Assembly (NCBI RefSeq): GCF_030547245.1
Contig: NZ_JAUOQT010000003.1
Coordinates: forward strand, 496,001-560,000
Direction: 5' to 3'
Source: Oceanihabitans sp. 2_MG-2023
GTDB taxonomy: Bacteria > Bacteroidota > Bacteroidia > Flavobacteriales > Flavobacteriaceae
Length of the DNA stretch: 64,000 bases
The notes below the pieces were generated by a model. It was given only the letters and a program-made list of their open reading frames with translations. It did no database searches and was not told where the DNA came from. Every line of letters starts with the position of its first letter. The first letter of the stretch is position 1. Positions 36,452 to 58,969 of the stretch are shown here, in pieces. The position numbers and the translations under genes were made by a program.

Positions 36452-36494
36452 TGACAAATATCATATTATAATTGCACTTGTTTTGTGACTTTTG
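36452..36494 (+). promoter_or_regulatory. Fnr-type site and promoter of ccoI (site 1)
   Basis: TGACAAATATCA (36452-36463) is followed by TATTAT and, starting 29.5 bp from the site centre, GACTTTTG (36487-36494), one base off TAnnTTTG. The ccoI ATG is 25 bp further. The divergent Fnr-family gene starts 38 bp to the left, but I see no -7 box for that direction. Confidence 0.7.
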
Positions 36495-36519
36495 TTACAG
36501 GTATAAAAGAGCAAATATT

Positions 36520-38898
36520 ATGGACAAATCCACTTGTTTTCATTGTGGTGATGATTGTGATTCTACAATTATAAAATTCGACGAAAAGTCTTTTTGTTGT
36601 ACTGGTTGTAAAACGGTTTATGAAATTTTTTCAGAAAACGATTTAACCTGTTATTATGATATGCAAGCTTCCCCTGGAGCAATACCGAAAGAGATTCAAG
36701 GTAAATACGATTTTCTTTCTAAAGAAAACATCATAGAAAAACTAACCGAATTTAACGATGGCACCACACAAATTGCTACACTCTACATACCGCATATTCA
36801 CTGTAGTTCTTGTATTTGGATTCTAGAAAACGGGAACAAATTAAACCCTGGAATAACAGCTTCTCAAGTTAATTTTGGTAAGAAAACGGTTCGTGTTACT
36901 TACCATACCGAAAAAACATCGCTTAAAGAAGTGGTATTACTTTTAAGTAGTATTGGTTATGAACCTTATATTTCTTTAGACGATTTTAAAACAGGCAAAG
37001 AACACATAAACAGAACCCTTATGTATAAATTAGGTATTGCTGGTTTTGCATTTGGAAATGTTATGTTCCTCTCGTTTCCTGAGTATTTTGAAGTTGGTGA
37101 ATTCTGGTTAGAAAAATACAAACATTTATTTCGTTGGTTAATGTTTGCCTTTTCACTTCCTGTAGTATTTTATGCTGCACAAGATTATTTTATTTCTGCT
37201 TATAAAGGGCTACGAGCAAAGATTTTAAATATAGATGTTCCTATTGCCCTTGGTATTGCTGTACTTTTTATTCGAAGTACAATGGAAATCATCTTCGATT
37301 TAGGCTCTGGATTTTTCGATAGTTTAACCGGTTTAGTTTTCTTTTTATTACTAGGAAAATTCTTTCAACAAAAAACCTATTCCTTCCTATCGTTTGAGCG
37401 CGATTACAAATCGTATTTCCCAATTGCGGTAACTAAAATTTCTTCGGAAAAAGAGGAAACTCCAATTCAGGTGTACGAAATTAAAAAAGGAGATAGACTA
37501 CTTATTAGAAACGAAGAATTAATTCCTGTTGATGGAATACTTATTAACGGAAAAGCCAGAATTGATTATAGTTTTGTTACTGGAGAATCGGAAGCAGTAA
37601 GTAAAAAATCTGGAGACAAATTATTTGCTGGTGGAAAACAAACTGCTGGAGTTCTAGAAATGGAAGCTCTAAAATCGGTAGAGCAAAGTTACCTCACACA
37701 ATTATGGAGTAACGATGTATTTAGTAAAAATAAAGAAGACGGTTTTACGACCTTAACCAATAGTATAAGCAAACGTTTTACCATTGCAGTTTTGAGTATA
37801 TCAATATTAGCAACACTATTTTGGTTATTTAAAGATGCTAGTAAAGCCATGAATGTATTTACAGCAGTACTTATAATTGCTTGTCCTTGTGCCATTGCCC
37901 TCTCTGCTCCTTTTACCTTCGGAAATTTGCTTCGCATCTTTGGAAAGCAAAAATTTTATGTAAAGAATGCTTCGGTTATCGAACAATTAGCAGCTATTAA
38001 TACGATCATTTTTGACAAAACGGGAACTATCACTTCTAATAAAAAAAGTACGGCAACCTATGAAGGTGAAACGCTTTCTACTTCCGAAGAAACTCTACTA
38101 AAAAATACGCTTCGTGGTTCTAACCATCCGTTAAGTAGGACACTTTATGATATTTTAGACGAAAACAATATCATTACATTAAATCATTTTGAAGAGCATT
38201 TAGGAAAAGGTATTGAAGCTTCTCATAACAACGAAAACATAAAAATTGGTTCTGCTAGCTTTGTGGGTTCTTCAGAAGCTTCGGTTTTAAATACTGCGGT
38301 ACATATTAGTACAAATAATATATATAGAGGAAAATATACTTTTTATAATAGCTATAGAAAAGGGTTGTCTAAACTATTCAATAAACTAAAAAAACAATAT
38401 GATTTAGTAATTCTTTCTGGAGATAATGAAGGAGAATTAGAAAATCTAAAAAAAATACTTCCAAGTAAAACGAAATTAATTTTCAATCAAAAACCAGATG
38501 ATAAGCTAGAATACATAAAATACCACCAAACCGAAGGCGCCAAAGTACTTATGATAGGAGACGGTTTAAATGATGCTGGTGCCTTAGCACAAAGCAATGT
38601 TGGTATTGCACTTTCTGAAAATGTAAATGTCTTCTCTCCTGCATGTGATGCCATTTTAGATGCTTCAAAATTTAATCAGTTAAACAAATATATTAAAGCC
38701 TCTAAAAGTGCTATAAAAATTATTAAATGGAGTTTTGTATTGTCATTTATATATAACATTATCGGTCTCTATTTTGCGGTAACCGGACAATTAGCCCCAG
38801 TTGTAGCAGCAATTCTAATGCCTTTAAGTTCTATTAGTATTGTAGTATTTACAACTATTGCAACCAATATTTTAGGTAAAAAACTGGCAAGAAATTAG
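36520..38898 (+). CDS. ccoI: Copper-translocating P-type ATPase for cbb3 oxidase assembly
   Basis: 792 residues from the ATG at 36520; an in-frame TTG at 36472 is too early relative to the promoter. The N-terminus has a cysteine-rich metal site (CFHCGDDC, then CCTGC), a heavy-metal-associated domain with HCSSCIW, and eight membrane spans. Transport motifs are IIACPCAIALSAPF (the CPC ion site), FDKTGTITS (phosphorylated Asp) and GDGLNDAGAL. CcoI exports copper to cbb3 oxidase maturation at the periplasmic side. It is immediately upstream of ccoS and the oxidase genes. Confidence 0.94.
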   Translation: MDKSTCFHCGDDCDSTIIKFDEKSFCCTGCKTVYEIFSENDLTCYYDMQASPGAIPKEIQGKYDFLSKENIIEKLTEFNDGTTQIATLYIPHIHCSSCIWILENGNKLNPGITASQVNFGKKTVRVTYHTEKTSLKEVVLLLSSIGYEPYISLDDFKTGKEHINRTLMYKLGIAGFAFGNVMFLSFPEYFEVGEFWLEKYKHLFRWLMFAFSLPVVFYAAQDYFISAYKGLRAKILNIDVPIALGIAVLFIRSTMEIIFDLGSGFFDSLTGLVFFLLLGKFFQQKTYSFLSFERDYKSYFPIAVTKISSEKEETPIQVYEIKKGDRLLIRNEELIPVDGILINGKARIDYSFVTGESEAVSKKSGDKLFAGGKQTAGVLEMEALKSVEQSYLTQLWSNDVFSKNKEDGFTTLTNSISKRFTIAVLSISILATLFWLFKDASKAMNVFTAVLIIACPCAIALSAPFTFGNLLRIFGKQKFYVKNASVIEQLAAINTIIFDKTGTITSNKKSTATYEGETLSTSEETLLKNTLRGSNHPLSRTLYDILDENNIITLNHFEEHLGKGIEASHNNENIKIGSASFVGSSEASVLNTAVHISTNNIYRGKYTFYNSYRKGLSKLFNKLKKQYDLVILSGDNEGELENLKKILPSKTKLIFNQKPDDKLEYIKYHQTEGAKVLMIGDGLNDAGALAQSNVGIALSENVNVFSPACDAILDASKFNQLNKYIKASKSAIKIIKWSFVLSFIYNIIGLYFAVTGQLAPVVAAILMPLSSISIVVFTTIATNILGKKLARN

Positions 38899-38920
38899 AA
38901 TGATTAAAAATAACCAAACA

Positions 38921-38963
38921 TGATAAAAATCATGTTTTAAGAATGCTATCCAATGTAATTTTG
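38921..38963 (+). promoter_or_regulatory. Fnr-type site and promoter of the ccoS-NO-Q-P operon (site 2)
   Basis: TGATAAAAATCA (38921-38932), part of a longer inverted repeat AACATGAT...ATCATGTT, is followed by TAATTTTG (38956-38963), an exact TAnnTTTG. The box begins 29.5 bp from the site centre and 28 bp before the ccoS ATG. Confidence 0.8.
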
Positions 38964-39177: not shown

Positions 39178-41355
39178 ATGGAAGTACAACAATTTTATTA
39201 CGATAACAAAATCGTTAAAAATTTCCTTTACGCAACCATACTCTGGGGAGTAGTAGGTATGTCAGTAGGTTTACTGCTTGCGTTCATGTTTTTATTCCCA
39301 AACTTAACCGACGGAATATCCTGGTTAAGCTTTGGCCGTTTAAGACCATTACACACCAATGCGGTAATCTTTGCCTTTGTTGGTAATGCTATTTTTGCTG
39401 GTGTTTATTACTCAACACAACGGTTACTTAAAGCAAGAATGTATAGTGACTTATTAAGCAAAATAAACTTTTGGGGTTGGCAACTTATTATAGTAGGTGC
39501 TGCTATTACATTACCTTTAGGTTATACATCAACAAAAGAGTATGCCGAATTAGAATGGCCGTTTGATATTGCCATTGCTGTTATTTGGGTCGCTTTTGGT
39601 ATTAACCTTATTGGTACTATGCTTAAACGAAGACAACGTCATTTGTATGTAGCTATTTGGTTTTATATAGCAACTTTTGTTACAGTTGCTGTACTTCATA
39701 TATTTAATAGTTTAGAACTACCAGTAAGTGCAATGAAAAGTTATTCTGTATACGCAGGCGTTCAAGATGCTTTAGTACAATGGTGGTATGGACATAATGC
39801 AGTTGCTTTCTTTTTAACGACACCATTTTTAGGATTGATGTACTATTTTGTACCTAAAGCTGCAAATAGACCTGTATACTCTTATAGATTATCAATTGTT
39901 CACTTTTGGTCCTTAATATTTATATATATTTGGGCTGGACCACACCATTTATTATATACCGCTTTACCAGAATGGGCGCAAAGTCTAGGTACTGCATTTT
40001 CAATTATGTTATTAATGCCTTCTTGGGGAGGAATGATAAACGGACTATTAACACTTCGTGGCGCTTGGGATAAAGTAAGAACAGATCCTGTTTTAAAATT
40101 TATGGTTGTAGCAATTACTGGTTATGGTATGGCTACTTTTGAAGGTCCAATGCTTTCTCTTAAGAATGTAAATGCTATTGGTCACTTTACCGATTGGATT
40201 ATTGCACACGTTCACGTTGGTGCTTTAGCATGGAATGGTTTCTTAACCTTTGGTATGATTTATTACCTAGTTCCTAAATTATTTAAAACAAAGTTATTCT
40301 CTACAGGCTTAGCTAATCTACATTTCTGGGTTGGTACATTAGGTATTATAATGTACACTTTACCAATGTATGTTGCTGGGTTTACGCAAGCTAGTATGTG
40401 GAAACAATTTAATCCTGATGGAACTTTAGTTTATGGTAACTTCTTAGAAACAGTTACCGAAATTATGCCTATGTACTGGATGCGTGCTATTGGAGGAACG
40501 CTATATATAACAGGAATGTTAATTCTTGTTTATAATGTAGTTGTTACCATAAAAAGCGGTAGTAAAGTAGAAGATGAATTAGCAGAAGCTCCTGCATTAC
40601 AACATGTGTCTAAAAAACGTACTTCTGGAGAAGGATGGCACACTTGGTTAGAACGTAAACCAATTAAATTAACTATTGGAGCAACAATTGCTATTTTAAT
40701 TGGTGGTATTGTACAAATAGTTCCTACCATAATGGTTAAATCAAATATACCAACTATTGCTAGTGTAAAACCATATACTCCTCTAGAATTAGAAGGTCGA
40801 GATATATACATTCGTGAAGGTTGTGTTGGTTGTCACTCACAAATGGTAAGACCTTTTAGAAGTGAGGTAGAACGTTATGGTGAATACTCTAAAGCTGGAG
40901 AATTTGTTTACGATCATCCATTCCTTTGGGGAAGTAAACGAACTGGACCTGATTTACATCGTATTGGTGGAAAATACTCAGATAACTGGCATTTAAATCA
41001 TATGTATGACCCACAAAGTACTTCTTCTGGTTCTATCATGCCATCTTATAAATGGATTGTTAAAAATGAATTAGACAAATCGATGACCGAAGCTAAAATG
41101 GAAGTCATGGTTAAATTAGGGGTTCCTTACACAGATGAAGAAATAGCAAATGCACAACAAGCAATGCTAGATCAAGGTACCAAAATTGAAAAAAACCTAT
41201 ATGCAGATCCAGATTTTGCAGAAACCTATGAAGCAGATAAAACTGCTGGAGGTCCAGAATTTATTGAAATGCGCAATCGTGAAATAGTAGCACTTATTGC
41301 TTACTTACAACGTTTAGGTACAGATATAAAAGTAAAAGATTTAGAAACCAATTAA
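39178..41355 (+). CDS. ccoNO: cbb3 oxidase subunits I and II fused (CcoN-CcoO)
   Basis: 725 residues. The first 480 form the heme-copper oxidase core: HTNAVIFAFVGNAIFAGVYY, WWYGHNAVAFFLTTPFLGLMYYFVPK (copper-B histidine region), WAGPHHLLYTALPEWAQSLG and HVHVGALAWNGFL (heme b/b3 ligands). A linker follows, then a membrane anchor near 495-520 and the mono-heme CcoO domain with C549-VGCH. The CcoN-CcoO fusion is known in Bacteroidota. It is the high-affinity proton-pumping terminal oxidase, in the inner membrane. Confidence 0.95.
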   Translation: MEVQQFYYDNKIVKNFLYATILWGVVGMSVGLLLAFMFLFPNLTDGISWLSFGRLRPLHTNAVIFAFVGNAIFAGVYYSTQRLLKARMYSDLLSKINFWGWQLIIVGAAITLPLGYTSTKEYAELEWPFDIAIAVIWVAFGINLIGTMLKRRQRHLYVAIWFYIATFVTVAVLHIFNSLELPVSAMKSYSVYAGVQDALVQWWYGHNAVAFFLTTPFLGLMYYFVPKAANRPVYSYRLSIVHFWSLIFIYIWAGPHHLLYTALPEWAQSLGTAFSIMLLMPSWGGMINGLLTLRGAWDKVRTDPVLKFMVVAITGYGMATFEGPMLSLKNVNAIGHFTDWIIAHVHVGALAWNGFLTFGMIYYLVPKLFKTKLFSTGLANLHFWVGTLGIIMYTLPMYVAGFTQASMWKQFNPDGTLVYGNFLETVTEIMPMYWMRAIGGTLYITGMLILVYNVVVTIKSGSKVEDELAEAPALQHVSKKRTSGEGWHTWLERKPIKLTIGATIAILIGGIVQIVPTIMVKSNIPTIASVKPYTPLELEGRDIYIREGCVGCHSQMVRPFRSEVERYGEYSKAGEFVYDHPFLWGSKRTGPDLHRIGGKYSDNWHLNHMYDPQSTSSGSIMPSYKWIVKNELDKSMTEAKMEVMVKLGVPYTDEEIANAQQAMLDQGTKIEKNLYADPDFAETYEADKTAGGPEFIEMRNREIVALIAYLQRLGTDIKVKDLETN

Positions 41356-41365: not shown

Positions 41366-41557
41366 ATGCTAAAATTTGTAAAAAATTATATGGATAGTAT
41401 TTCTGGAATTGAAGTATATCCAATTATATCCTTATTAATTTTCTTTGGCTTTTTTGTAGTTCTTTTTTTATGGGTTTACACAGCAAAAAAAGAATATATA
41501 CAAACAGTAAGTAACATTCCATTAGAAAACGAAAACCAAAACCAAACAGAAAAATGA
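41366..41557 (+). CDS. ccoQ: cbb3 oxidase subunit CcoQ
   Basis: 63 residues with a single membrane span (about 19-40, VYPIISLLIFFGFFVVLFLWVY) and a basic then polar Asn/Gln-rich tail. It is a small stabilising subunit. Its stop overlaps the ccoP ATG (ATGA), so translation is coupled. The position 10 bp after ccoNO confirms the call. Confidence 0.88.
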   Translation: MLKFVKNYMDSISGIEVYPIISLLIFFGFFVVLFLWVYTAKKEYIQTVSNIPLENENQNQTEK

Positions 41558-42441
41558 AAAATTTTATACCATCTTGGGTAAGAGTACCTGTTATATTCTT
41601 TATCATATTCGGTCTAGTAGAGTATTTTGTAGACTCTGGTAGTAAACCTGCATTTATTGAACAACCTATAATTATGCTATTCTTATTATTAGTATTAGTT
41701 ATACTTATTGCTACAGAAGCTATTGTAGGTTCTATGGATAATATACTTTATCAAAGTTTAGATGAAGAAGGAAAAGCAAGGTATGCCGCTTCTAAAGAAG
41801 TTAAAACACCTAAATCTATTAAATGGTTGCAAGAAACTTACACCAAGTTACTAGGAGCAAAACCAATACAAGAAGAACACGAAATAATTTTAGACCATAA
41901 TTATGATGGTATTAAAGAACTAGATAATAACTTACCACCATGGTGGGTATATAGTTTCTATATTTCTATAGTTTTCGGCGTTGTTTATTTACTTAAATTC
42001 CATGTCTTTAATGGTGAAAATCAATATCAAGAATTAGAAATGGAATATGCACAAGCTAAAATAGATATTGAAGAGTACAAAAAAACAGCCAAAGACTTAG
42101 TTGATTTTAATACGGTAGAAATCTTAACCGATGCTGCTGATTTAGGAAATGGAAAGAAAATTTTTGAAACCAACTGTGTTGCTTGTCATAAAGCAGATGG
42201 TGGTGGTGGAATTGGTCCTAACCTAACAGATAAGCACTGGATTTTAGGTGGTGGAATTAAAAATGTTTTTAAAACAATTACAGAAGGTGGTCGAGATGGT
42301 AAAGGAATGATAGCTTGGAAACAAAGTTTAAAACCATCAGAAATTAATCAAGTAGCTAGTTACGTATTACAATTTCAAGGTACAACTCCTGCAGAACCAA
42401 AAGCAGCAGAAGGTGACATTTGGGAAGAAACTCAAGAATAA
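41554..42441 (+). CDS. ccoP: cbb3 oxidase subunit CcoP, mono-heme form
   Basis: 295 residues. An N-terminal membrane span pair (about 8-30 and 40-62) and a third near 130-150 (PPWWVYSFYISIVFGVVYL) precede one cytochrome c domain with C208-VACH and GGGIGPNLTDKHWILGGG, with Met in GKGMIAW as a possible sixth ligand. Canonical CcoP carries two hemes; I find only one CxxCH. It delivers electrons to the oxidase core. The acidic end (AEGDIWEETQE) is typical of Bacteroidota forms. Confidence 0.93.
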   Translation: MKNFIPSWVRVPVIFFIIFGLVEYFVDSGSKPAFIEQPIIMLFLLLVLVILIATEAIVGSMDNILYQSLDEEGKARYAASKEVKTPKSIKWLQETYTKLLGAKPIQEEHEIILDHNYDGIKELDNNLPPWWVYSFYISIVFGVVYLLKFHVFNGENQYQELEMEYAQAKIDIEEYKKTAKDLVDFNTVEILTDAADLGNGKKIFETNCVACHKADGGGGIGPNLTDKHWILGGGIKNVFKTITEGGRDGKGMIAWKQSLKPSEINQVASYVLQFQGTTPAEPKAAEGDIWEETQE

Positions 42442-42461: not shown

Positions 42462-43886
42462 TTGGAAACTCCAGAAAACGAAACATTTAGAGACAGTATT
42501 GGAACGATAAATGAAGAAGGCAAACGCGCTTGGGTATACCCAAAAAAACCAAGCGGGAAATTTTATGAAAAGCGTAAAATAGTAAGTTATATCTTATTAG
42601 CTTTTCTTATTGCTGCACCATTCATTAAAATTAATGGGAACCAGTTCTTAATGTTTAATATTTTAGAACGTCGTTTTAATATTTTTGGATTTCCTTTTTG
42701 GCCACAAGATTTTCATCTATTTGTAATCTCGATGATTATAGGGGTTATTTTTATAGCACTATTTACCGTGGGATTCGGACGTATTTTTTGCGGATGGATT
42801 TGTCCGCAAACCATTTTTTTAGAAATGGTTTTTCGTAGAGTTGAATACTGGATTGATGGAGACAGAAATAAACAACGCAAACTAGACAATCAAAAATGGG
42901 ATGCAGAAAAAATAAAAAAACGCCTGTTAAAATGGTTTATATTTTTAGTCATTTCATTTATTATTGCGAATGTTTTTTTAGCTTATTTAATAGGTAGTGA
43001 TAAACTATTACAGTATATAACAGATGGCCCTTCTAATCATTTAGGAACCCTTTTCCCTCTATTAATATTTACTGCAGTTTTCTATTTTGTATTTGCTTGG
43101 TTTAGAGAACAGGTTTGTATTATTGCGTGTCCTTACGGAAGATTACAAGGTGTACTTTTAGATAATAAATCGATTATAGTTGCTTACGATCATGTAAGAG
43201 GTGAAGGAGAAAATGGACGTAAAAAATTCAGAAAAAACGAAGATCGACAAGAACTTGGTCATGGAGATTGTATTGATTGTTTACAATGTGTACATGTATG
43301 TCCTACAGGAATAGATATTCGAAATGGTACACAATTAGAATGTGTAAACTGTACAGCTTGTATCGATGAATGCGATCATATAATGGAAAGTATTAACCTT
43401 CCTAAAGGCTTAATTAGATATGCTAGTGAAGATGAAATAGAAAAAGGTGAAAAGTTCAAACTTTCTGCTAGAATGAAAGGATATATTGCTGTATTAATTA
43501 TTCTTATGGGTGTACTTAGTGGTATGTTATTATTAAGAAACGATGTTGAAGCTAGAATATTAAGACTTCCAGGACAGCTGTATGAGCACAAAGGAGAAAC
43601 CGTTATTAGCAACGTTTTTACTTATAAATTAGTTAATAAAACAACTCAAGAAATAGAGAACGTAAACTTTAAACTTAGAAAGTATAAAGGAACAATAAAA
43701 CTGGTATCCACATCAGACAATTTTATAGTTCCCGCACAAGGATTAGCAGAAGGCACACTGTTTATTGAAATAGATAAAAGTCAACTAAAAGGAGACAAAA
43801 ACAAACTCATGATTGACGTGTATAGTGGAGACAAATTGATTGAAAATACAAGTGTGAACTTTTTAGGACCAAGAAGTTATAATTAA
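42462..43886 (+). CDS. ccoG: cbb3 oxidase accessory protein CcoG (FixG/RdxA)
   Basis: 474 residues. Start codon TTG at 42462 (METPENETFRDSIGT); no ATG is in frame nearby. Membrane spans lie near 40-60, 85-110, 160-180, 195-215 and 340-360. Two ferredoxin-type [4Fe-4S] clusters are marked by CIDCLQCVHVCPTGIDI and CVNCTACIDECDHIM. GFGRIFCGWICPQTIF and ACPYGRLQGVL are also conserved. The C-terminal 100 residues are an Ig-like periplasmic domain. CcoG reduces copper for insertion into the oxidase. Confidence 0.93.
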   Translation: METPENETFRDSIGTINEEGKRAWVYPKKPSGKFYEKRKIVSYILLAFLIAAPFIKINGNQFLMFNILERRFNIFGFPFWPQDFHLFVISMIIGVIFIALFTVGFGRIFCGWICPQTIFLEMVFRRVEYWIDGDRNKQRKLDNQKWDAEKIKKRLLKWFIFLVISFIIANVFLAYLIGSDKLLQYITDGPSNHLGTLFPLLIFTAVFYFVFAWFREQVCIIACPYGRLQGVLLDNKSIIVAYDHVRGEGENGRKKFRKNEDRQELGHGDCIDCLQCVHVCPTGIDIRNGTQLECVNCTACIDECDHIMESINLPKGLIRYASEDEIEKGEKFKLSARMKGYIAVLIILMGVLSGMLLLRNDVEARILRLPGQLYEHKGETVISNVFTYKLVNKTTQEIENVNFKLRKYKGTIKLVSTSDNFIVPAQGLAEGTLFIEIDKSQLKGDKNKLMIDVYSGDKLIENTSVNFLGPRSYN

Positions 43887-44005: not shown

Positions 44006-44059
44006 ATGAACTAAAATATGTTTAATTAAAAAACTCCTGTTTTGACAGGTAATACTACT

Positions 44060-46694: not shown

Positions 46695-46722
46695 CTTTAT
46701 TTAAAAATAAAGCCTTTAAGCT

Positions 46723-47364: not shown

Positions 47365-47387
47365 ATGTATAACAAACAATTAAAATT

Positions 47388-48769: not shown

Positions 48770-49007
48770 ATGCAATGCACTTGTTGAAAATTAAAAAAAA
48801 AATTAATAATGTGAATTATCGTTTTGAAACGATTTTTATTGATTCAATAACTCAGGCTATCACAAACCATTATATAGATTTTTTTATCTTTATTTGATAA
48901 AAATGAGAGTTTTTAGAACATTTATTTTCTAAAGTAAAACGAATATTAACCTTTCAAAAATAAGCAAAGCGGCTTTGGTATTACATCCTAAAAAAGAAAT
49001 GAATTAG
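48770..49007 (+). pseudogene. Degenerate, internally deleted copy of the neighbouring uspA
   Basis: After an ATGCAA start like that of uspA (48770), 48777-48886 aligns with uspA codons around 69-110 (shared GCACTTGTTGAA, then AATTATCGTTTTGAAAC-like sequence and CAAATAGATTTT-like end). From about 48885 to 48992 it aligns with the uspA end, including TATCTTTATTT and TTACATCCT, which encodes the shared LVLHP tail. About 380 bp between these blocks is missing and several in-frame stops and shifts are present. It overlaps the last bases of the convergent lipoprotein gene. Confidence 0.8.
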
Positions 49008-49456: not shown

Positions 49457-49468
49457 AAAGTACATTTT

Positions 49469-50951: not shown

Positions 50952-52180
50952 GTTATTCTTTTAATTTGTGGGTTCTTGTCTAATAAATTATCTGGTGTAA
51001 AAACTGGGGATACTTTTTCAGAAAAATCAATAATATCTATAAACATACTACGTAGTAAAATGATAGTTTCTGGTGTACGGTTTACTATATATGAAAACAA
51101 TTTCACTGGTCTGTAAGGCACATCTCCTATACCATTTTTATCGAGATCATATCCTGTATAATTGCTCCAATAATTCTTATCAAAAACATTATCGTTTACA
51201 TTGCTATTGTACGCGATATCAAAAGAGTTATATAAGAAGTTGTTTTCTGTAAAATTATTTGCGTAACACGCTCCTTTTACCTTAATAGCCCATCCGTTAT
51301 TAGAAAAACTATTGTGTCTATAATTAATACGATTAGAGCCTTCTATGTTAATTCCAATGGTATTATCTTCAAAAATATTGCCTATAATTTCAGCATCATT
51401 AATCTCTTTTAATAGCATTCCGTAGGAAGCTGTTCCCCAATTTTCTTTAAAAAGATTGTTATACATTTTTATGCGTTTAGAAAACATAACTGCTACTCCA
51501 GCACCATTGTTTTCAAACGTATTATCTTGATATGTATCATCATTAGAAAACATAAAGTGTAAGCCGTAACGCACATTTAGAGTACTAATATTATTTTTAA
51601 TTAAGCAGTCGTCAGAGAACTCTAAGTAAATACCATCTCTTACATGTTCTACGTAATTATGTTCAATTTCTACATTTTTACTATACCATAATTGAATGCC
51701 ATTACCAGAGTTGTATTCTTCCACAGCATCTCCAATTATTTTGTTATGATACACTTTTCCATTTCTAGATTTTTCGATATAAATACCAAAGAAAAGTTTT
51801 TCTAATACTAAATTCTGAATGACAAAATTTTTGCTGTTTTTAACTCTAATCGCAGCATAATCTTCAGTGTAACTTGTGCCAACATTTATAATAAACAAGC
51901 CATCAACGGTAACATTATCTGCTGTTATAGTAATAATTTCACCTTTTTTTTCACCATCAATTACTGGGTAATTTTTACCAATAATTGTTAGTGGTTTGTC
52001 TACTACAATTGCATGCTCTTTGTAAGAACCTTTTTCAACTATTATGGTATCAAAATCTTTTGATTGTGTTATAGCCTCTTTTAAAGTTGAAACAGGACAA
52101 GTGCTACAAACCTCAATAGTTTGAGCAATACTTATGTTAGCTATGAAAATAGCTATAAAGAAAACCGTTATACTTTTCAT
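50945..52180 (-). CDS. nosD: NosD, periplasmic copper-site assembly protein
   Basis: 411 residues. Signal peptide (1-19, cleaved near SIAQ). The right-handed beta-helix (CASH) fold shows as many short repeats with Asn ladders, e.g. NGIQLWYSKNVEIEHNYVEH and GLHFMFSNDDTYQDNTFENN. CSTCPVSTLKEAI at the mature N-terminus and the ending PVFTPDNLLDKNPQIKRI are typical of Bacteroidota NosD. It delivers copper/sulfide to apo-NosZ in the periplasm. Confidence 0.93.
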   Translation of the reverse strand: MKSITVFFIAIFIANISIAQTIEVCSTCPVSTLKEAITQSKDFDTIIVEKGSYKEHAIVVDKPLTIIGKNYPVIDGEKKGEIITITADNVTVDGLFIINVGTSYTEDYAAIRVKNSKNFVIQNLVLEKLFFGIYIEKSRNGKVYHNKIIGDAVEEYNSGNGIQLWYSKNVEIEHNYVEHVRDGIYLEFSDDCLIKNNISTLNVRYGLHFMFSNDDTYQDNTFENNGAGVAVMFSKRIKMYNNLFKENWGTASYGMLLKEINDAEIIGNIFEDNTIGINIEGSNRINYRHNSFSNNGWAIKVKGACYANNFTENNFLYNSFDIAYNSNVNDNVFDKNYWSNYTGYDLDKNGIGDVPYRPVKLFSYIVNRTPETIILLRSMFIDIIDFSEKVSPVFTPDNLLDKNPQIKRITW

Positions 52181-52184
52181 GTTA

Positions 52185-52622
52185 CTAGTCTTTTAGGTGA
52201 GCTAGTAATTCTGGCCAAGAGTATAGTTTTCCGCCTTTTTCTGTTTGTACTTTTTCTGCTTCAGATTTATTTTCAAATGCTGTTAAAAATGCTCCCATTG
52301 GGCTTGGCATGTTTTTACTGATTAAAAACGTTGCTTTTGTTGCATCCGTGAAAGCTTCTGGTTTAGAAAAATAATTAGTGAAGTATAATTCTATTTCGGA
52401 CGTATCAAATTCATCGAAATAATGAATCATACATTCTGTTGCATCAAATTTATAAACTTTTCCTTTTTTTGTTACAAACTCTGCTGCATGTACTTTATCT
52501 ACAATGGTCATTTTACAAAAGTGACAACCATCACTTCCATATTCTATGGATTTTGGTGATACATTACAACTTGAAAAAATTAGAAGTAATATAAGAGCTG
52601 AATAGTGTTTTAGTATTTTCAT
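52185..52622 (-). CDS. nosL: NosL copper chaperone lipoprotein
   Basis: 145 residues from the ATG at 52622; the longer frame beginning at 52691 overlaps the previous gene and lacks a signal peptide. Lipobox at LIFSSC. The copper site is DGCHFCKMTIVD (Cys-x2-Cys-x-Met), followed by DATECMIHYF and the LISKNMPSPMGAFLTAF segment. NosL binds Cu(I) for NosZ maturation. It is 4 bp before nosD. Confidence 0.93.
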   Translation of the reverse strand: MKILKHYSALILLLIFSSCNVSPKSIEYGSDGCHFCKMTIVDKVHAAEFVTKKGKVYKFDATECMIHYFDEFDTSEIELYFTNYFSKPEAFTDATKATFLISKNMPSPMGAFLTAFENKSEAEKVQTEKGGKLYSWPELLAHLKD

Positions 52623-52648
52623 TTTTTTAGTGTTTTGAAAATGTAAAA

Positions 52649-53269
52649 TTAGGATGTTGTTTTCTTCAAACTTATTTTTCGGCCTAGCCAAAAAGCAACA
52701 AGTGTTAAAGACATTCCTATAAACATTAAGTAACCTCCTGTATTTGGTAAAGAAGTAACATCAAAATTTAATAGTTTTTTAAACCCAATTAATGGCGGTT
52801 TGTATGACATTGGTGTACCATCTGGATTTGTTACTTTTATAATAGCGTGTGGGTCTAAATTGCCACCATAATCCGCTAACCAATTATTAAAATCGTACAT
52901 GCCTAAGATGCCTAAAATAGACATTAAAACAAACCAGCCTAAGAAATATTTATAACTCACTTTGTTAAGATATCCCAATGAGCCAATAATTACACCTAAT
53001 AAAGCCATACCTAATATTACTTTAGGAAATACTGAGAATTCCCACATTTCTTCTGCTTTTGGTATGGTTTTCATACCTATGTAGTGATTTAAACCGTCAA
53101 TATTTTGTAAATCAAATTCAGATACACCTTTTATACCATCGATATAAATATTCATACCTAAAGGGTCTGGATATTGAGGTGCTCCAAGCATAATGTTCCA
53201 TAACGGGAATTTAAAAAGTCCTAATAACAGTAATGAACCAATTATCATTATAATGCTAGCCTTTTTCAT
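52649..53269 (-). CDS. Membrane protein of the nos cluster, function unknown
   Basis: 206 residues. Four membrane segments are likely: about 4-22, 85-103, 110-125 and 178-197. The periplasmic loop after span 1 carries GAPQYPDPLGMNIYIDGIKGVSEFDLQNIDGLNHYIGMKTIPKAEEM, split here by a conserved-looking NHYIGM motif. A second extracytoplasmic segment is GGNLDPHAIIKV. I recognise it as a recurrent nos-cluster neighbour in Bacteroidota but know no function. It lies between nosZ and nosL. It could be an electron-input or assembly protein replacing NosR, which is absent here; this is inference. Confidence 0.65.
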   Translation of the reverse strand: MKKASIIMIIGSLLLLGLFKFPLWNIMLGAPQYPDPLGMNIYIDGIKGVSEFDLQNIDGLNHYIGMKTIPKAEEMWEFSVFPKVILGMALLGVIIGSLGYLNKVSYKYFLGWFVLMSILGILGMYDFNNWLADYGGNLDPHAIIKVTNPDGTPMSYKPPLIGFKKLLNFDVTSLPNTGGYLMFIGMSLTLVAFWLGRKISLKKTTS

Positions 53270-53330
53270 GATGTGTAATATTTAGTATTCTTTTCAGTGA
53301 GGTTTCTGTGTTAACAGAATAAAGTGTTTT

Positions 53331-53369
53331 AAAAAAGAAAGGCGAGAGCGAAAACTCAACTCTCGCCTT
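53331..53369 (-). terminator. Strong hairpin inside the nos operon, after nosZ
   Basis: AGGCGAGAG (53340-53348) and CTCTCGCCT (53360-53368) form a perfect 9-bp GC-rich stem followed, on the minus strand, by TTCTTTTTT. It would stop much of the transcription after nosZ and lower expression of the assembly genes downstream. It could also protect the nosZ 3' end. Confidence 0.75.
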
Positions 53370-53420
53370 AATTAGAGAAATAAACACTAAAACAAAATTT
53401 CTCTAATTCTTCAAATTAAT

Positions 53421-55391
53421 TTACTCAATATCTTCTCCTAGAGACCATTTAATTGGCACATCTGAATCTGCAGCAGAAACTCTGATATAACCTTGCATTT
53501 CTTGGTGCAATGCAGAACAGAAATCTGTACAATAGAAAGGCCATACACCAACTTGTTTAGGTTCCCAAACAGATGATTTTGTTTGTCCTGGCATTATCAA
53601 TAATTCTGAATTGTTTTGACCAAGTACAGCAAATCCATGAGGTACATCAAAATCTTGCTCTAAATTAGTAACGTGGAAAAAGACTTTGTCTCCTACTTTT
53701 ACACCTTCAATATTATCTGGTGAGAAGTGACTCCTAATAGTGGTCATATAAATATGAACTTCGTTTCCGTCTCTTACTACTTTAGTTTCAGCATCAGATT
53801 TTGCAGCATATGGGTGTTTGTTATCTGCTAACTTATAGATTTTTTGAGATTGCTCTTTAATAAGACTTGCTTCCATTGCTGCTGCGTAATGTGGCTCACC
53901 ATGTGTTGGAAAATCTAATAATAATTCCATTTTTTCTCCCGAAATATCATACAACTGGGCAGAATGCTCCATTTCTGGACCCGTTGGTAAATAACGATCT
54001 TTTGTTATTTTGTTCATTGCAAACATGTATTTACCTTGAGGTTTCCCTGAGTTTCCTCCAGGAATTGTTAAGTGACCAACAGAGTAATATGTAGGTTTTC
54101 TGTCGATAACTTCCCAAGTTCCTATTTTCCATTTTACAACTTCAGAAGAAATAAAGAATGTAGTATATGCATTTCCTTGGCCATCAAACTCTGTGTGTAA
54201 TGGTCCTAATCCTGGTTGCTCTACAACGCCAGCTAAAACATCTTCGAAATTTAAAATAGGAATGCCGTAAGCTTCACCTGCAAATTTCTCTTTTTCAATA
54301 GCATCTAACATTTTTGTAAATGAATGCACGGTTAAATTAGCAGATAATTTTCCGTTACCAACTATGTATTCACCAGAAGGGTCAACATCACAACCATGTG
54401 GTGATTTTGGTGTTGGTATGAAATAAACAGCTCCAGGAACATCAATTGGGTTTACAACACGAACCTCTTTATTCATAGTAGATTTTGCTGTATGTGTATG
54501 CTCATCATATACATTATGTGTATAATTAGCTGGCATCATTTTTCCACCACCATTATTTACATATTCTTCAATTTTTTTCCAGTTTATAGCTGCAATAAAA
54601 TCTTTATCGTTTTGAGATGCATTCACCTCTAAAAGCGTACTAGCTTCTTCTGTATTATATGTTGTAAAGAAGAACCAACCGTGAGATTTCCCACGTCCTG
54701 GATGTGATAAATCGTAGTTAAAACCTGGCATTAAAACTTGAAATTTAATATCCATGTTTCCTGTTTCTGGTGCTACGCTAATAAAAGATAAGGCTCCTTG
54801 AAAGTTTCCTTTGTAATCTTTAATTGGCATATCTCGTTGCGGGATTGGCACAGAAAAACGTGTTCCTGCAACTACATATTCTGTGTTTTCGGTTACAAAA
54901 GAAGAACTGTGGTTGCCAGCACTATTTGGAACCTCAATAATTTCTTCTGTTTCAAATGTGGTAAGGCTAATTCTTGCAATACGCGGTGTATTATTTTCAT
55001 TTATAAAAACCCAACGACCATCAATTTCTCCTTTAGATTGCGAAATATCTGGATGGTGAGAATCCCCCCAAGGAATAAATCCGTGAGAAGTATTTAACAT
55101 AGGTTTAGTCTCTTCAGAATAACCATAACCAGATGTTGGAAACTGTGAAAACACAGGAATCTCTTTAAACATTCTCCCAGAAGGTAAACCATAAACGGTT
55201 AAATTACCACTATATCCACCAGATATAAAAGCGTAATGTGAGTCATACTCTCCAGGAGCTATATAAACTTTCTCTGCAATATTATTTGCAAGGGCTCCAG
55301 ATTTAGAGTTGGATTTGTTCCCGTTATTACAACTTGTAAACCCTAAAAGGATAATAAGCGTTGCAATGCTTGATGTTAGTATTCTTTTCAT
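53421..55391 (-). CDS. nosZ: Nitrous oxide reductase, clade II
   Basis: 656 residues. It has a Sec/lipoprotein-type signal (LGFTSC) and no twin-arginine motif, marking the clade II form. The N-terminal beta-propeller carries CuZ histidines (DSHHPD around residue 111, and later DEHTHTAKST and SPHGCDVDPSGE). The C-terminal cupredoxin domain has the CuA site Cys621-TDF-Cys625-SAL-His629 with Met in HQEMQ. It reduces N2O to N2 in the periplasm. The lipobox suggests it is membrane anchored. It is in an operon behind a cytochrome c and a fasciclin protein and has its own downstream hairpin. Confidence 0.97.
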   Translation of the reverse strand: MKRILTSSIATLIILLGFTSCNNGNKSNSKSGALANNIAEKVYIAPGEYDSHYAFISGGYSGNLTVYGLPSGRMFKEIPVFSQFPTSGYGYSEETKPMLNTSHGFIPWGDSHHPDISQSKGEIDGRWVFINENNTPRIARISLTTFETEEIIEVPNSAGNHSSSFVTENTEYVVAGTRFSVPIPQRDMPIKDYKGNFQGALSFISVAPETGNMDIKFQVLMPGFNYDLSHPGRGKSHGWFFFTTYNTEEASTLLEVNASQNDKDFIAAINWKKIEEYVNNGGGKMMPANYTHNVYDEHTHTAKSTMNKEVRVVNPIDVPGAVYFIPTPKSPHGCDVDPSGEYIVGNGKLSANLTVHSFTKMLDAIEKEKFAGEAYGIPILNFEDVLAGVVEQPGLGPLHTEFDGQGNAYTTFFISSEVVKWKIGTWEVIDRKPTYYSVGHLTIPGGNSGKPQGKYMFAMNKITKDRYLPTGPEMEHSAQLYDISGEKMELLLDFPTHGEPHYAAAMEASLIKEQSQKIYKLADNKHPYAAKSDAETKVVRDGNEVHIYMTTIRSHFSPDNIEGVKVGDKVFFHVTNLEQDFDVPHGFAVLGQNNSELLIMPGQTKSSVWEPKQVGVWPFYCTDFCSALHQEMQGYIRVSAADSDVPIKWSLGEDIE

Positions 55392-55419
55392 TATTTTAAT
55401 ATTTTATTTAGTGTTTCAA

Positions 55420-55989
55420 TTATTCAGTTGGTGGCATTAACACTTTGTCTATTATGTGTACAATACCATTACCGGCAGGCATGCTAGCAAGAATTTTTGC
55501 TCCTCCAATCATTGGCTCACCATCTACTACCTCTACTTTTACATAGCCATTATTTGCTTGACCTAGTTTTTTAAATTTCTTTAAAAAGTCTTTAGAATAG
55601 TTGCCTGGTGTTACATGATACTTTAAAATATTTGCTAAAGCATCTTTGTTTTCTGGTTTTAATAAATTTTCAACTGTACCTTCTGGTAATGCTGCAAAGG
55701 CTTCATTAGTTGGTGCAAAAACCATTAATGGTCCTGCGTTTACTAAAACATTTTCTAATGCTGCTGCTTGTACTGCGGCTACTAACGTAGTATGATCTTT
55801 AGAACCAATTGCAATACTTAAAACGGTGGTACTTCCATCATCTTCAATAAATGCTTGTCCAGTTTTTTGTGTTGTAGCTTGTGTTTCTACTTCTGTGCTT
55901 GTGTTTGCATTTTCTGTATTACTGTCTTTGCAAGCACTTAATAAAGTCATTGCAGCAAAAACAAAAAGCATATTCTTAATTCGTTTCAT
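55420..55989 (-). CDS. Fasciclin (FAS1) domain lipoprotein
   Basis: 189 residues. Lipobox at LLSAC. The FAS1 domain runs about 55-185: SIAIGSKDHTTLVAAVQAA, the H1 motif VFAPTNEAFAALPEGTVENLL, and the H2 region ILKYHVTPGNYS and GNGIVHIIDKVLMPP. FAS1 domains mediate adhesion or protein contacts. Its position between the cytochrome c gene and nosZ, in the same operon, is unexplained; anchoring NosZ or the cytochrome is one possibility (inference). Confidence 0.9.
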   Translation of the reverse strand: MKRIKNMLFVFAAMTLLSACKDSNTENANTSTEVETQATTQKTGQAFIEDDGSTTVLSIAIGSKDHTTLVAAVQAAALENVLVNAGPLMVFAPTNEAFAALPEGTVENLLKPENKDALANILKYHVTPGNYSKDFLKKFKKLGQANNGYVKVEVVDGEPMIGGAKILASMPAGNGIVHIIDKVLMPPTE

Positions 55990-55995
55990 AACGAT

Positions 55996-56499
55996 TTATT
56001 TAAGAGTTCTAAAATATTCTAAAACAGCTCTTGCTTCTTTTTCAGTAAGGTGTTGGTTTGCCATTGGTGCACCATTAAACTCGATTAGTAACTCTTTTGC
56101 TAATGGATCTTCTTTTACCATTTGCTCTGGATTTAAAATCATGTTCATTACCCATTCTGGAGTTCTTCTTTCTAGAATACCTTTTGGAGCTGGGCCAATA
56201 AATTTTTTGTCTGCTCTATGGCAAGCTGTACACATTTTCTTATAAACATCTTCCCCGTGTGTTGCCATTGCTTGATCTATTTCAGCACCAAGTGTAATAG
56301 ATTTTATTGGGCCAACACCTTTATTGTCTAAATTTACTTTTTTAGAAGCAGAAACCTTTTCTGCTTTTGGAGTTGCAGCTTTTTCTGTTGTTGCCTTTTT
56401 TTGATAAGAGAATCCTTCTTTTTTCTTTTCTTCTTTGCCTCCACAACTTACTAGAAGTGTTACAAATAATACCATCAATAATTTTAGTGTTGTTTTCAT
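55996..56499 (-). CDS. Class I cytochrome c lipoprotein, likely electron donor to NosZ
   Basis: 167 residues. Lipobox at LLVSC (Cys19), a Lys/Glu-rich tether to about residue 60, then one heme c site Cys90-TACH94 with KFIGPAP after it. The Met of NGAPMANQHLT is the likely axial ligand, and the C-terminal helix ends EARAVLEYFRTLK. As the first gene of the nos operon, with a lipid anchor, it is the probable electron donor to NosZ. Its promoter is the Fnr-type site 5. Confidence 0.9.
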   Translation of the reverse strand: MKTTLKLLMVLFVTLLVSCGGKEEKKKEGFSYQKKATTEKAATPKAEKVSASKKVNLDNKGVGPIKSITLGAEIDQAMATHGEDVYKKMCTACHRADKKFIGPAPKGILERRTPEWVMNMILNPEQMVKEDPLAKELLIEFNGAPMANQHLTEKEARAVLEYFRTLK

Positions 56500-56529: not shown

Positions 56530-56572
56530 TAAATTTACTTTGAAAACTTATTTTAAAACATGACATTTATCA
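56530..56572 (-). promoter_or_regulatory. Fnr-type site and promoter of the nos operon (site 5)
   Basis: On the plus strand TGACATTTATCA lies at 56561-56572; read on the minus strand it is TGATAAATGTCA followed by TGTTTT. TAAATTTA (56530-56537, minus) is a TAnnTTTR-like box beginning 29.5 bp from the site centre. The cytochrome c ATG is about 30 bp further. Confidence 0.75.
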
Positions 56573-56689: not shown

Positions 56690-57523
56690 CTAAATTTTAA
56701 ATGTCATCACTGGCAAAGTAGAATGATTTGCTATATCTTCAGAAATACTACCTTCAAAGAAATGCGCTAAACCTTTTCTACCATGTGTTGCAACTGCAAC
56801 TAAATCTGCACCAACAATATTAGAATAATTTAACACTCCTTGTTCAATAGTATAATCATTAACATAAGCAACATTTTTCATCTTGTCTAGATTTCCATCT
56901 GCTTTTTTCAAAAAAGTTGCCACACGTTTTTCTATTTCGGTAGAGCTTCTAAAGCGATTATCTGGCAGGTTTACATAGACTAAATGCACTTTCGTATTTA
57001 AAGCTTCAAACAACTTACTAGCGTTTAGATATGGAGCTACTGCTTCATCAGAAAAATCGGAAGCAAAAATCACATTTTCAAAATCGGTTAAAATAGGATT
57101 TTGCTTTATAACTAATACAGGAATATTAGAATGTCTTACTACTTTTTCTGTGTTAGAACCAACAAGTACTTCTTTTAATCCACTTGCACCATGCGAGCCC
57201 ATTATTATTAAATCTACATCATGCTCTTTAGCTACTTCACTAACTTCGCTAAACACTTTAAAGTGTTTTACTAAAGGAGTCACATTTACGTCTTGTAAAT
57301 AGTCTTTATTTAAAAATTCTTGAAACTTTTGCTCTGCTAATTTTAAATAAAAAACGGTTTCTTCTTGTTGCAAGTTTTCTGCACTAGAGATTAAAGCATT
57401 CGATAATTCTAGCATGTGTAATGCTAATATTTCTGCATTATATTTTTTTGCTAAAACAGCAGCTGTTTCTAATGCGTATTCTGAGTGTTCCGAAAAATCT
57501 ATTGGTACAATAATTTTTTTCAT
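56690..57523 (-). CDS. Universal stress protein, tandem-domain
   Basis: 277 residues with two Usp domains. Domain 1 (1-150): KKIIVPIDFSEHSEYALETAAVLAKKY and LIIMGSHGASGLKEVLVGSNTEKVVRHSNIPVLVIK. Domain 2 (155-277): NVIFASDFSDEAVAPYL and LVAVATHGRKGLAHFFEGSISEDIANHSTLPVMTF. Both have the G-x2-G-x9-G-type nucleotide loop, unlike the Usp at 47388. It lies 21 bp after hemN and is probably co-expressed with it under the Fnr-type site 6. Confidence 0.92.
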   Translation of the reverse strand: MKKIIVPIDFSEHSEYALETAAVLAKKYNAEILALHMLELSNALISSAENLQQEETVFYLKLAEQKFQEFLNKDYLQDVNVTPLVKHFKVFSEVSEVAKEHDVDLIIMGSHGASGLKEVLVGSNTEKVVRHSNIPVLVIKQNPILTDFENVIFASDFSDEAVAPYLNASKLFEALNTKVHLVYVNLPDNRFRSSTEIEKRVATFLKKADGNLDKMKNVAYVNDYTIEQGVLNYSNIVGADLVAVATHGRKGLAHFFEGSISEDIANHSTLPVMTFKI

Positions 57524-57544
57524 GGTTTTTATCGTTTTATGGTT

Positions 57545-58909
57545 TTAAATGGTCATTGAAAATAGTTGGGCTTCTGGCTTACTACGTTGAAGAAGTAAAT
57601 CGAAAGCCATACAAATATTTCGAACAAAGGGTTTTCCTTTATCGGTAATTATTATTTTATTGGAAAAGATTTCAATTAGTTCATCTTGTTCCATTTCTTT
57701 AAGTTTTATTAAGGTATCTGGTAATTCTGCAAAATAATTTTCTGTTGCTGTCCAAGAAGTTTCAAATTGACACATTAGATTTAAAATATGTTTTCTAATA
57801 ATTAAATCTTCATCTAATAAAATATGTCCTCGATACACAGGAATTATTCCTTCATCTACCAAATGGTAATACGCTTCAATTCCTTTAACATTTTGAGCAA
57901 AACCATACCAACTATCGCTAATTGAAGAAACACCTAGACCAATCATTGCCTTTGTTTTTGAGGCTGTATACCCCATAAAATTTCTATGCAATTCTTTCTT
58001 TATAGTTGCTTTATATAAGGTATCTGTTGGTAATGCAAAGTGATCCATCCCTATTTCTACATAATCTGCTTGAAAAAGCATTTCTTTACCCAATTCGTAT
58101 TGCTTACGTTTACTTTCTGCTGTTGGCAAATCGTTATCTTTATACCCACGTTGCCCGTTACCTTTAATCCATGGTACATGCGCATAGCTATAAAAAGCAA
58201 TTCTATCTGGTTTTAATAATTTGGTTTTATTAATGGTTTCTTGAACATGTGCTTCGGTTTGAAATGGCAAGCCAAAAATAATATCATGACTTATAGAGGT
58301 ATAGCCAATTTCTCGTGCAGTTTCTGTTACACGTTTTACGTTTTCAAAAGGTTGTATTCTATGTATAGCTTTTTGAACCGTTTCATTATAGTCTTGTACA
58401 CCAAAACTTACACGTTTAAAACCTAAATTATATAAGGCTTGTAAATGTTCTTTTGTGGTGTTATTTGGATGACCTTCAAAACTAAACGCATAATTTTCAG
58501 CAAGGGTTGCTTTTCTTAAAATTCCAGCAATTAAATATTCTAAGTTTTCTGGTGTAAAAAAAGTAGGTGTTCCACCTCCTAAATGTAATTCTTTAATATT
58601 GGGTTTCTTTTCTAATAAGTCACAGTAAAGTTTCCATTCTTTTAAAACAGCTGTAATATAAGGAGTCTCTACTTCATGTCTTTTCGTAATACGTTTATTA
58701 CAGCCACAAAAGGTGCATAAGCTTTCACAAAAAGGCAAATGGATATAAAGGCTAATACCTTCGGAGTCATTACTTTCTTGAAAAGATTCTATTAAAGAAG
58801 CTTTCCATTTTTTTAATGAGAATGTATTGTTATTCCAATACGGAACTGTAGGATAACTCGTATAACGAGGACCTGCTATATTATATTTATTAACTAGTAA
58901 ATTTGCCAT
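57545..58909 (-). CDS. hemN: Oxygen-independent coproporphyrinogen III oxidase
   Basis: 454 residues from the ATG at 58909; the frame runs open to 58963 but that start would sit inside the regulatory site. The radical-SAM cluster is C61-x3-C65-x2-C68 with Cys70 (PFCESLCTFCGCNK). YTSYPTVP at the start, the SAM-site GGGTPTFF and ISYSH-like segments match HemN proper rather than HemW. It makes protoporphyrinogen IX without oxygen, which keeps heme supply for the cbb3 oxidase and cytochromes at low oxygen. It is preceded by the Fnr-type site 6. Confidence 0.94.
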   Translation of the reverse strand: MANLLVNKYNIAGPRYTSYPTVPYWNNNTFSLKKWKASLIESFQESNDSEGISLYIHLPFCESLCTFCGCNKRITKRHEVETPYITAVLKEWKLYCDLLEKKPNIKELHLGGGTPTFFTPENLEYLIAGILRKATLAENYAFSFEGHPNNTTKEHLQALYNLGFKRVSFGVQDYNETVQKAIHRIQPFENVKRVTETAREIGYTSISHDIIFGLPFQTEAHVQETINKTKLLKPDRIAFYSYAHVPWIKGNGQRGYKDNDLPTAESKRKQYELGKEMLFQADYVEIGMDHFALPTDTLYKATIKKELHRNFMGYTASKTKAMIGLGVSSISDSWYGFAQNVKGIEAYYHLVDEGIIPVYRGHILLDEDLIIRKHILNLMCQFETSWTATENYFAELPDTLIKLKEMEQDELIEIFSNKIIITDKGKPFVRNICMAFDLLLQRSKPEAQLFSMTI

Positions 58910-58926
58910 ACCTAAAAATTCTACAC

Positions 58927-58969
58927 CAAAATTACACCGCTTATACCTAAAAAAATATGACATATATCA
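58927..58969 (-). promoter_or_regulatory. Fnr-type site and promoter of hemN (site 6)
   Basis: TGACATATATCA on the plus strand (58958-58969), read on the minus as TGATATATGTCA followed by TATTTT. TAATTTTG (58927-58934, minus) is an exact TAnnTTTG beginning 29.5 bp from the site centre; the hemN ATG is 17 bp further. In the other direction, towards yceI, no -7 box of the same form is seen at this distance. Confidence 0.8.

Follow-up and report, generated by a model that had tools for sequence, protein, structure and literature searches.

The cco, nos and hemN genes and their spaced sites

The window considered here is a stretch of 64,000 nucleotides (nt) from Oceanihabitans sp. 2_MG-2023 (GCF_030547245.1, NZ_JAUOQT010000003.1, forward strand, 496,001-560,000), a member of the Flavobacteriaceae, whose species live in the sea and in soil. 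It holds the gene of an Fnr-like regulator and six predicted operators of the form TGAY-N4-RTCA, found by a site scan ahead of ccoI, the cco operon, a CBS-domain gene, a universal stress protein (Usp) gene, the nos operon and hemN. These six sites are very probably class II activator sites of a low-oxygen regulon conserved in the Flavobacteriaceae, and this reading, taken whole, is the best explanation of the evidence gathered below.

The regulator gene (35736-36413, minus strand) encodes a protein of 225 amino acids with a cNMP-type sensor domain (cNMP_binding) and a Crp-like helix-turn-helix (HTH_Crp_2), assigned by Pfam and by profile and fold matches. It carries the cysteines C4, C7, C53 and C106 and the recognition helix GTATESAIRILS, as seen in alignments of 26 and 66 sequences and in a PDB profile alignment to Aliivibrio fischeri FNR. 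The first predicted operator, TGACAAATATCA (36452-36463), lies between this gene and ccoI, its centre being at -41.5 of ccoI and at about -27.5 of the regulator's own promoter. On the plus strand it is followed by the ccoI -7 box GACTTTTG (36487-36494), in which the first T is absent, as in most relatives, and on the minus strand by a predicted -7 box of the regulator's promoter, TAATTTTA (36435-36442), at a gap of 9. The gap is counted as the nucleotides between the end of the 12-mer and the -7 box, such that a gap of 23 places the box start 29.5 base pairs (bp) from the site centre. The ccoI-type P-type ATPase occupies 36520-38898 on the plus strand, where the list of open reading frames (ORFs) begins at an upstream TTG (36472).

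The second predicted operator, TGATAAAAATCA (38921-38932), with its -7 box TAATTTTG (38956-38963, plus strand) at gap 23, precedes ccoS-ccoNO-ccoP-ccoG-fixH, in which NCBIfam and Pfam identify the ccoN/ccoO fusion of a cbb3 oxidase (39178-41355, plus strand), ccoP (41554-42441), ccoG (42462-43886) and fixH (44042-44506). Further along the same strand, TGACTTTTGTCA (46722-46733) and the box TATCTTTA (46757-46764, gap 23) head a gene for a protein with two CBS domains (46790-47209, Pfam), and TGATTTTAATCA (47323-47334) with the weak box TAACTTGA (47358-47365, gap 23) heads a Usp gene (47388-48209, Pfam).

The last two sites are read on the minus strand. The predicted operator TGATAAATGTCA (56561-56572), with the box TAAATTTA (56530-56537, gap 23), stands ahead of the nos run (49004-56499, minus strand), where the ORF list and domain matches give a cytochrome c, a fasciclin-domain protein, a Sec-type NosZ, an ORF, NosL, NosD, an ATP-binding cassette (ABC) ATPase, a weakly ABC2-like membrane protein and a further ORF. 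Finally, TGATATATGTCA (58958-58969), again with the box TAATTTTG (58927-58934, minus strand, gap 23), precedes hemN and a second Usp gene (56690-58909, minus strand, NCBIfam); the probable hemN start is the box-linked ATG at 58909, inside an ORF of 472 amino acids.

Fixed spacing of sites, boxes and start codons

The six spaced sites were first described in an earlier note on this DNA, made from its letters, and that observation is confirmed as real. All six 12-mers exist, although the site it placed at 46723 begins at 46722. In transcription direction, all six -7 boxes start 29.5 bp beyond the centre of their site, which is slightly tighter than the range of 28.5-29.5 bp proposed. A TAnnTTTR-like box had been claimed at each site, and four of the six are perfect, whereas the box at 36452 lacks its first T and that at 47323 is weak; the register of these two imperfect boxes is the best match at the same place. 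The start codons also fall where they were said to, with an ATG 25, 20, 25, 22, 30 and 17 nt past the six boxes in order along the window. For the CBS, Usp and first nos genes, these ATGs match the listed ORF starts; at ccoI (36520) and hemN (58909) they fall inside longer ORFs, where they make sensible starts. The proposed extension of the site to RTCAT likewise stands, with a T directly after RTCA at all six sites.

The number of 12-mers is weak evidence by itself, because the eight observed in the window, where 3.5 are expected, are reached by 4 of 100 shuffles. Besides the six there are two 12-mers, at 51528 and 52522; both fall within nos ORFs, and neither is followed by a box at gap 23. 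The spacing carries far more weight. The probability of at least four perfect boxes in six at one fixed gap is about 5e-10 from the box frequency of the window and 5e-9 from the local frequency, in each case before allowing for some 60 possible gaps, and the claim that the arrangement is unlikely by chance holds on this basis and on that of the peak in the host genome described next.

Sites in the host genome and its relatives

A scan for the motif with a spaced box had been proposed as a check, and it was run on the host genome and on relatives. The host genome (3.69 Mb, 30 contigs), scanned for the 12-mer and box with a free gap of 10-40, gave 53 matches, 16 of which are at gap 23 and 37 over the 30 other gaps, a peak for which about 1.2 matches are expected per gap (Poisson P 4e-13). 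Twelve of the 16 lie outside the window, and three of these overlap just the extended front of a same-strand ORF that has a later ATG past the box. Predicted further targets in the host include Usp-like proteins (three sites, two genes), OmpW, an S30AE ribosome-hibernation-type protein, a thioredoxin-like protein, a citrate-type transporter and two proteins that match no Pfam family.

When 119 genomes of the order were scanned, the perfect site and box at the fixed gap were matched 316 times, versus 5 times for the same pattern read backwards. In 80 named Flavobacteriaceae loci, picked around the regulator, gap 23 accounts for 66 occurrences of TAnnTTTG and gap 24 for two, and there are none at gaps 19-22 or 25-29. 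Of the 80 loci, 71 have a ccoI-type site no more than 800 bp upstream of the regulator, and 53 have a second spaced site 2.2-2.8 kb beyond, at ccoN. The hemN loci, which were searched independently of the regulator, yield a similar picture: of 41 family genomes, 30 have an orthologue, and in 25 of the 30 loci, that of the window included, a spaced site stands at the same place, a tally that leaves out locus L199, where the site lies about 290 bp further upstream.

Promoter anatomy and the two-faced ccoI site

Among 131 aligned promoters of the named loci, the base 5' of TGAY is A or C in every one, and in 130 a T stands 3' of RTCA and leads into a T-run at the expected position of the -33 element. 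The operator is therefore best written (A/C)TGAY-N4-RTCAT, rather than the TTGAT-N4-ATCAA familiar from Escherichia coli FNR. According to start mapping in Flavobacterium psychrophilum, the -7 box spans -12 to -5 (PMC9723704), and because gap 23 can be combined with this published position, the site centre falls at -41.5, in agreement with the class II placement near -41.5 that had been put forward.

The ccoI and ccoN promoters differ in their boxes. The first T is missing ([GCA]AnnTTTG) in 73 of 79 promoters of the ccoI group, versus TA in 52 of 52 ccoN promoters (loci L081-L160). The ccoI group was formed by taking, in each locus, whichever spaced site lies closest to the far end; at least two of its members (L085, L130) are ccoN sites, so that the frequency of the ccoI site is taken from the 71 of 80 loci above and not from this group. 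Judged by its box, ccoI has a conserved, presumably weak promoter adjoining a strong ccoN one.

The same operator also faces the regulator. A TAnnTTTR box directed toward the regulator gene is present at 68 of the 71 ccoI-type sites; gap 9 accounts for 40 boxes, gap 10 for 10 and gap 23 for 11. A gap of 9 puts the site centre near -27.5 of the regulator's promoter, between the promoter elements, and because of this placement a single site would be predicted to activate ccoI and repress the regulator. By its geometry, then, the ccoI site would be placed to repress the promoter from which the regulator itself is transcribed.

A second regulator with a nearly identical helix

The host genome encodes four Crp-type proteins, and one of them, apart from the regulator in the window, is a candidate reader of the sites. 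It is a protein of 351 amino acids with receiver, cNMP and HTH_Crp_2 domains (hereafter receiver-Crp), encoded after a histidine kinase in a Usp-like cluster with spaced sites. This cluster (G000:C12:80331-86923; L039:6332-12924) contains four Usp-like genes (one Pfam-checked), the receiver-Crp, the FixL-like kinase, a gene for 138 amino acids and four spaced operators. The remaining two Crp-type proteins of the host were set aside as site readers, their helices being different.

The kinase has a PAS domain followed by HisKA/HATPase domains (Pfam). At E <= 1e-8, the PAS domain matches 13 distinct PDB sequences, every one of them FixL or DosP, and the four alignments shown are gap-free. The heme-ligand histidine, which we take to be H200 of FixL and H77 of DosP, is conserved in these alignments and marks a predicted heme site in the kinase. 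This residue, His64, is invariant in the ten kinases with an aligned PAS domain, the host's own included; in two loci the PAS domain is uncovered.

The link between sites and regulators was measured in the 119 genomes, with presence called at E <= 1e-60 for the receiver-Crp and at E <= 1e-40 for a close copy of the window's regulator. Matches per Mb amount to 2.21 where both regulators are present, 1.34 with the window's regulator alone (41 genomes), 1.67 with the receiver-Crp alone and 0.31 with neither (63 genomes); three genomes with just a weak homologue of the window's regulator have no spaced matches. In a scan of 99 genomes of the phylum, 23 with a regulator match at 1e-25 (receiver-type relatives included) hold 95 matches and the other 76 hold 40. 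Site and regulator are thus associated statistically rather than strictly, and the circuit seems to be limited to a part of the phylum.

These findings bear on the possibility that the sites are read mainly by the receiver-Crp once phosphorylated by its kinase, the window's regulator being minor or specialised. The two recognition helices are nearly identical (ATESLIRTLS in the receiver-Crp, ATESAIRILS in the window's regulator), and three gap-23 sites head Usp-like genes that adjoin the receiver-Crp, and one more site lies on the far side of the kinase gene. Moreover, the three genomes with a receiver-Crp but without a close copy of the window's regulator still contain 18 spaced matches in 10.8 Mb, the 1.67 per Mb given above; two of them (G051 and G084) keep a perfect spaced site ahead of ccoN, while no ccoN match was found in G114. 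A weaker homologue of the window's regulator (5.5e-36) is also present in G084; it is of the type with an extra N-terminal cysteine and has another helix. The receiver-Crp is present in just 12 of the 119 genomes, however, and the 41 genomes with the window's regulator alone have the 1.34 matches per Mb given above. In addition, a ccoI match lies on the opposite strand by the window's regulator in 78 of the 80 named loci, which were chosen by that regulator. Leading control by the receiver-Crp is accordingly judged unlikely. The earlier note had the regulator at 35736-36413 controlling all targets together; the regulon, its class II geometry and its link to an Fnr-like protein are supported outside the window, but sole action by this protein is not, given a receiver-Crp with nearly the same helix and sites that are kept without the window's regulator.

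The Fnr-like regulator and its cysteines

The label "Fnr-type" that was applied to the sites and their regulator also requires some adjustment. The protein has the domains of the Crp/Fnr superfamily, and in the PDB profile alignment its C4, C7 and C106 correspond to C20, C23 and C122 of FNR (residue numbers that we take to be those of the E. coli protein). Yet the third cysteine ligand and the helix serine are missing, and against the curated Fnr model the protein scores 104.8 bits, under the cut-off of 228. At the canonical third-ligand position (C29 of FNR) this protein has N13, most orthologues having N or S there; the FNR residue opposite C53 is an alanine. C4, C7, C53 and C106 are invariant in the alignments of 26 and 66 sequences, as are E, I and R of the helix E191-S-A-I194-R195.

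The distribution of these residues was followed in 84 distinct homologues, namely those in the loci analysed, a subset of all regulator matches. All four cysteines are present in 39 and none in 27, CxxC and C106 occur without C53 in 14, and four have an ill-fitting single cysteine; C53 occurs solely together with C4, C7 and C106. An extra N-terminal cysteine is found in 14 of 14 proteins that have CxxC and C106 but lack C53, versus 8 of 39 with C53 (Fisher 1.3e-7, from sequences that are related and not independent). Outside the order, 15 homologues comprise seven with all four cysteines, two with N-terminal cysteines and C106 but without C53, and six with none (five of them receiver-type). 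On the tree, the ligand types require 7 changes versus a shuffled mean of 35.9, with deep nodes and long branches being unsure. In the AlphaFold model (predicted local distance difference test, pLDDT, 83), C53 and C106 lie mid-strand in two strands. Because C53 co-occurs with the other three cysteines, and because homologues with those three but without C53 carry an extra N-terminal cysteine, the pattern suggests that C53 is a relocated cluster ligand, forming one ligand set with C4, C7 and C106.

It is improbable that the fourth ligand would instead be C29 or C32 of the regulator. A cysteine at positions 27-35 is indeed present in 31 of the 39 C53-type proteins, but it is missing in the other 8, as well as in five of the seven four-cysteine homologues outside the order, with C53 kept in all of them, and C29/C32 is on these counts disfavoured as the necessary fourth ligand.

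The homologues of a related family (f5) are nested in the C53 group on the tree and have lost all four cysteines, with the helix kept in the eight proteins seen (L203-L206, L231-L234). Since the cysteines are gone but the helix is retained, sensing in this family may have been lost or replaced and the DNA code kept. Most of their genomes still hold spaced sites, none of which was seen ahead of ccoN.

A model for the regulon and its rivals

From the geometry and conservation of the sites, we infer that (A/C)TGAY-N4-RTCAT is bound at -41.5 by an Fnr-like dimer, adjacent to the -7 TAnnTTTG promoter peculiar to the phylum, and that the dimer would there recruit polymerase to the genes for cbb3 oxidase, copper loading, heme synthesis, N2O (nitrous oxide) reductase and stress proteins. 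At low oxygen, a [4Fe-4S] cluster ligated by C4, C7, C53 and C106 would hold the dimer, with C53, in a beta strand, taking the place of the third ligand that E. coli FNR has near its N-terminus. By also covering the regulator's promoter, the ccoI site would limit the synthesis of the regulator. In the host genome and some relatives, the FixL-like heme kinase and the receiver-Crp probably feed the same sites. Confidence and doubt are evenly balanced on a broader proposal: that the Flavobacteriaceae have one low-oxygen regulon served by two chemically different oxygen sensors with a common operator, namely an Fnr whose third ligand has moved to the beta-roll (C53) and a heme-PAS kinase with its receiver-Crp, and that family f5 lost the cysteines and kept the helix.

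Several observations weigh against the model. For residues 1-5, the AlphaFold pLDDT is less than 50. Matches are still present (25 in all) in 18 of the 63 genomes that lack both regulators. The ccoI-type site is missing in 9 of the 80 named loci, some of them cut by contig ends, and 5 of the 30 hemN loci lack a site at the conserved place (it is absent from four and lies about 290 bp further upstream in one). Among ccoN loci, a site was found in just 4 of the 9 examined from other families of the order, and in family f5 a spaced site was found in 0 of 19 examined ccoN loci (of 26 matches). Among the host's gap-23 matches, C28:131044 lies inside a long ORF of the opposite strand, C1:251510 is 147 bp from its ORF (a pyridine nucleotide-disulphide oxidoreductase), and no ORF of at least 60 amino acids follows C25:316826. 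That family f5 is a plain continuation of the cco regulon is ruled out by the 19 examined ccoN loci, the other 7 of its 26 matches being outside this sample.

The regulator could conceivably sense nitric oxide (NO) or redox state, in the manner of DNR, NnrR or HcpR, with cysteines that bind a cluster or form disulphides, although this is rather doubtful. The nos genes are among the targets, and the TGAC half-sites presumably resemble those of HcpR and DNR. The iron-sulphur protein FnrP also responds to NO, according to PMC4771820. On the other hand, three of the cysteines align with FNR ligands, and the targets centre on a high-affinity oxidase and the oxygen-independent HemN. In F. psychrophilum, moreover, cbb3 oxidase and heme-synthesis enzymes are reported to be strongly up under oxygen limitation in PMC9723704, whose main text contains neither "fnr" nor "crp". 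Chance pairing in AT-rich intergenic DNA, with only the weak excess of 12-mers in its favour, is ruled out by the sharp single-gap peak in the host genome and the 80 loci and by the 316 matches versus 5 backwards, leaving it next to no probability.

Relation to known systems and significance

Class II activation by FNR-type proteins is textbook knowledge, and E. coli FNR represses its own synthesis, an autorepression for which the ccoI/regulator site has a matching geometry. The regulator in the window resembles FNR of E. coli and A. fischeri (5E44, 9QLT series) in its Crp/Fnr fold, its equivalents of C20, C23 and C122, the -41.5 position and the predicted control of low-oxygen respiration. 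It differs in its third ligand, with N or S at the C29 position in most orthologues and an invariant C53 where FNR has alanine. The helix of FNR reads E-x2-S-R and its half-site TTGAT; here I194 stands in place of the FNR serine (S212, as we take its number to be), and the outer operator base, A or C throughout, is never T. The regulator thus appears to work like FNR, yet it lacks the canonical ligand and helix features that were looked for.

Non-canonical ligand sets have a precedent in the Fnr of Bacillus subtilis and B. cereus, an Fnr-like oxygen sensor whose cluster is held by three C-terminal cysteines and Asp141 (PMC3520743). The regulator here is without C-terminal cysteines, none being present past residue 124 of its translation.

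The second pathway resembles FixL-FixJ-FixK of rhizobia, in that a PAS kinase with a heme histidine aligned to FixL and DosP is paired with a Crp-type regulator. FixJ (a receiver with LuxR-type output) and FixK (a Crp-type protein) are separate proteins, whereas the host's receiver and Crp-type DNA-binding domains are joined in one, with a helix nearly the same as that of the Fnr-like regulator.

By both sequence profile and fold, the best solved-structure match of the window's regulator is CrpPg of Porphyromonas gingivalis (2GAU), which nonetheless has a different helix and, over the alignment (residue 33 onward, with the N-terminal cysteines outside it), no cysteine at 53 or 106. Work on CrpPg has dealt with it as a regulator that is independent of cAMP and binds to the promoter of mfa (PMC12040651). 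In the part of PMC8510549 available, MalR-like CRP/FNR homologues of Flavobacteriales metagenome bins are predicted to sense carbon, and a four-cysteine criterion is used on Nitrosomonas, Rhodocyclaceae and a Xanthomonadales bin; these homologues share order and superfamily with the regulator here and are likened to it at that level only. Within the open-access literature, surveyed by title and the start of the abstract, no description of this regulon, operator or ligand set was found, subscription papers lying mostly outside the search.

If the model holds, it would provide a sequence rule for reading the low-oxygen genes of an abundant family from genomes, a Sec-type N2O reductase operon included, and the prediction follows that FNR-type proteins can hold an oxygen-sensing cluster in a new manner. 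The natural series of proteins in which the cluster would be kept, moved or lost, with or without a heme sensor, could also show how oxygen regulons change sensors yet keep operators.

Neighbouring genes

Several neighbours of the regulon genes deserve mention. Directly past the regulon's Usp gene lies a gene for an Rrf2-family regulator (48252-48686, Pfam), possibly a third input through an iron-sulphur cluster or NO. A gene pair for an extracytoplasmic function (ECF) sigma factor and an RskA-type anti-sigma factor (60438-61776) stands beside the regulon. Unrelated to the regulon are the genes at 29467-32958, which encode an M1 peptidase, an OmdA-type protein and an alpha/beta-hydrolase-OsmC fusion. 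Finally, the regulator is followed on its strand by VWA-domain and AAA genes (33015-35699) with weak matches to chelatase-type AAA/VWA subunits, and VWA and AAA genes recur in 17 and 15 of the 80 named loci, respectively, on the regulator's strand every time.

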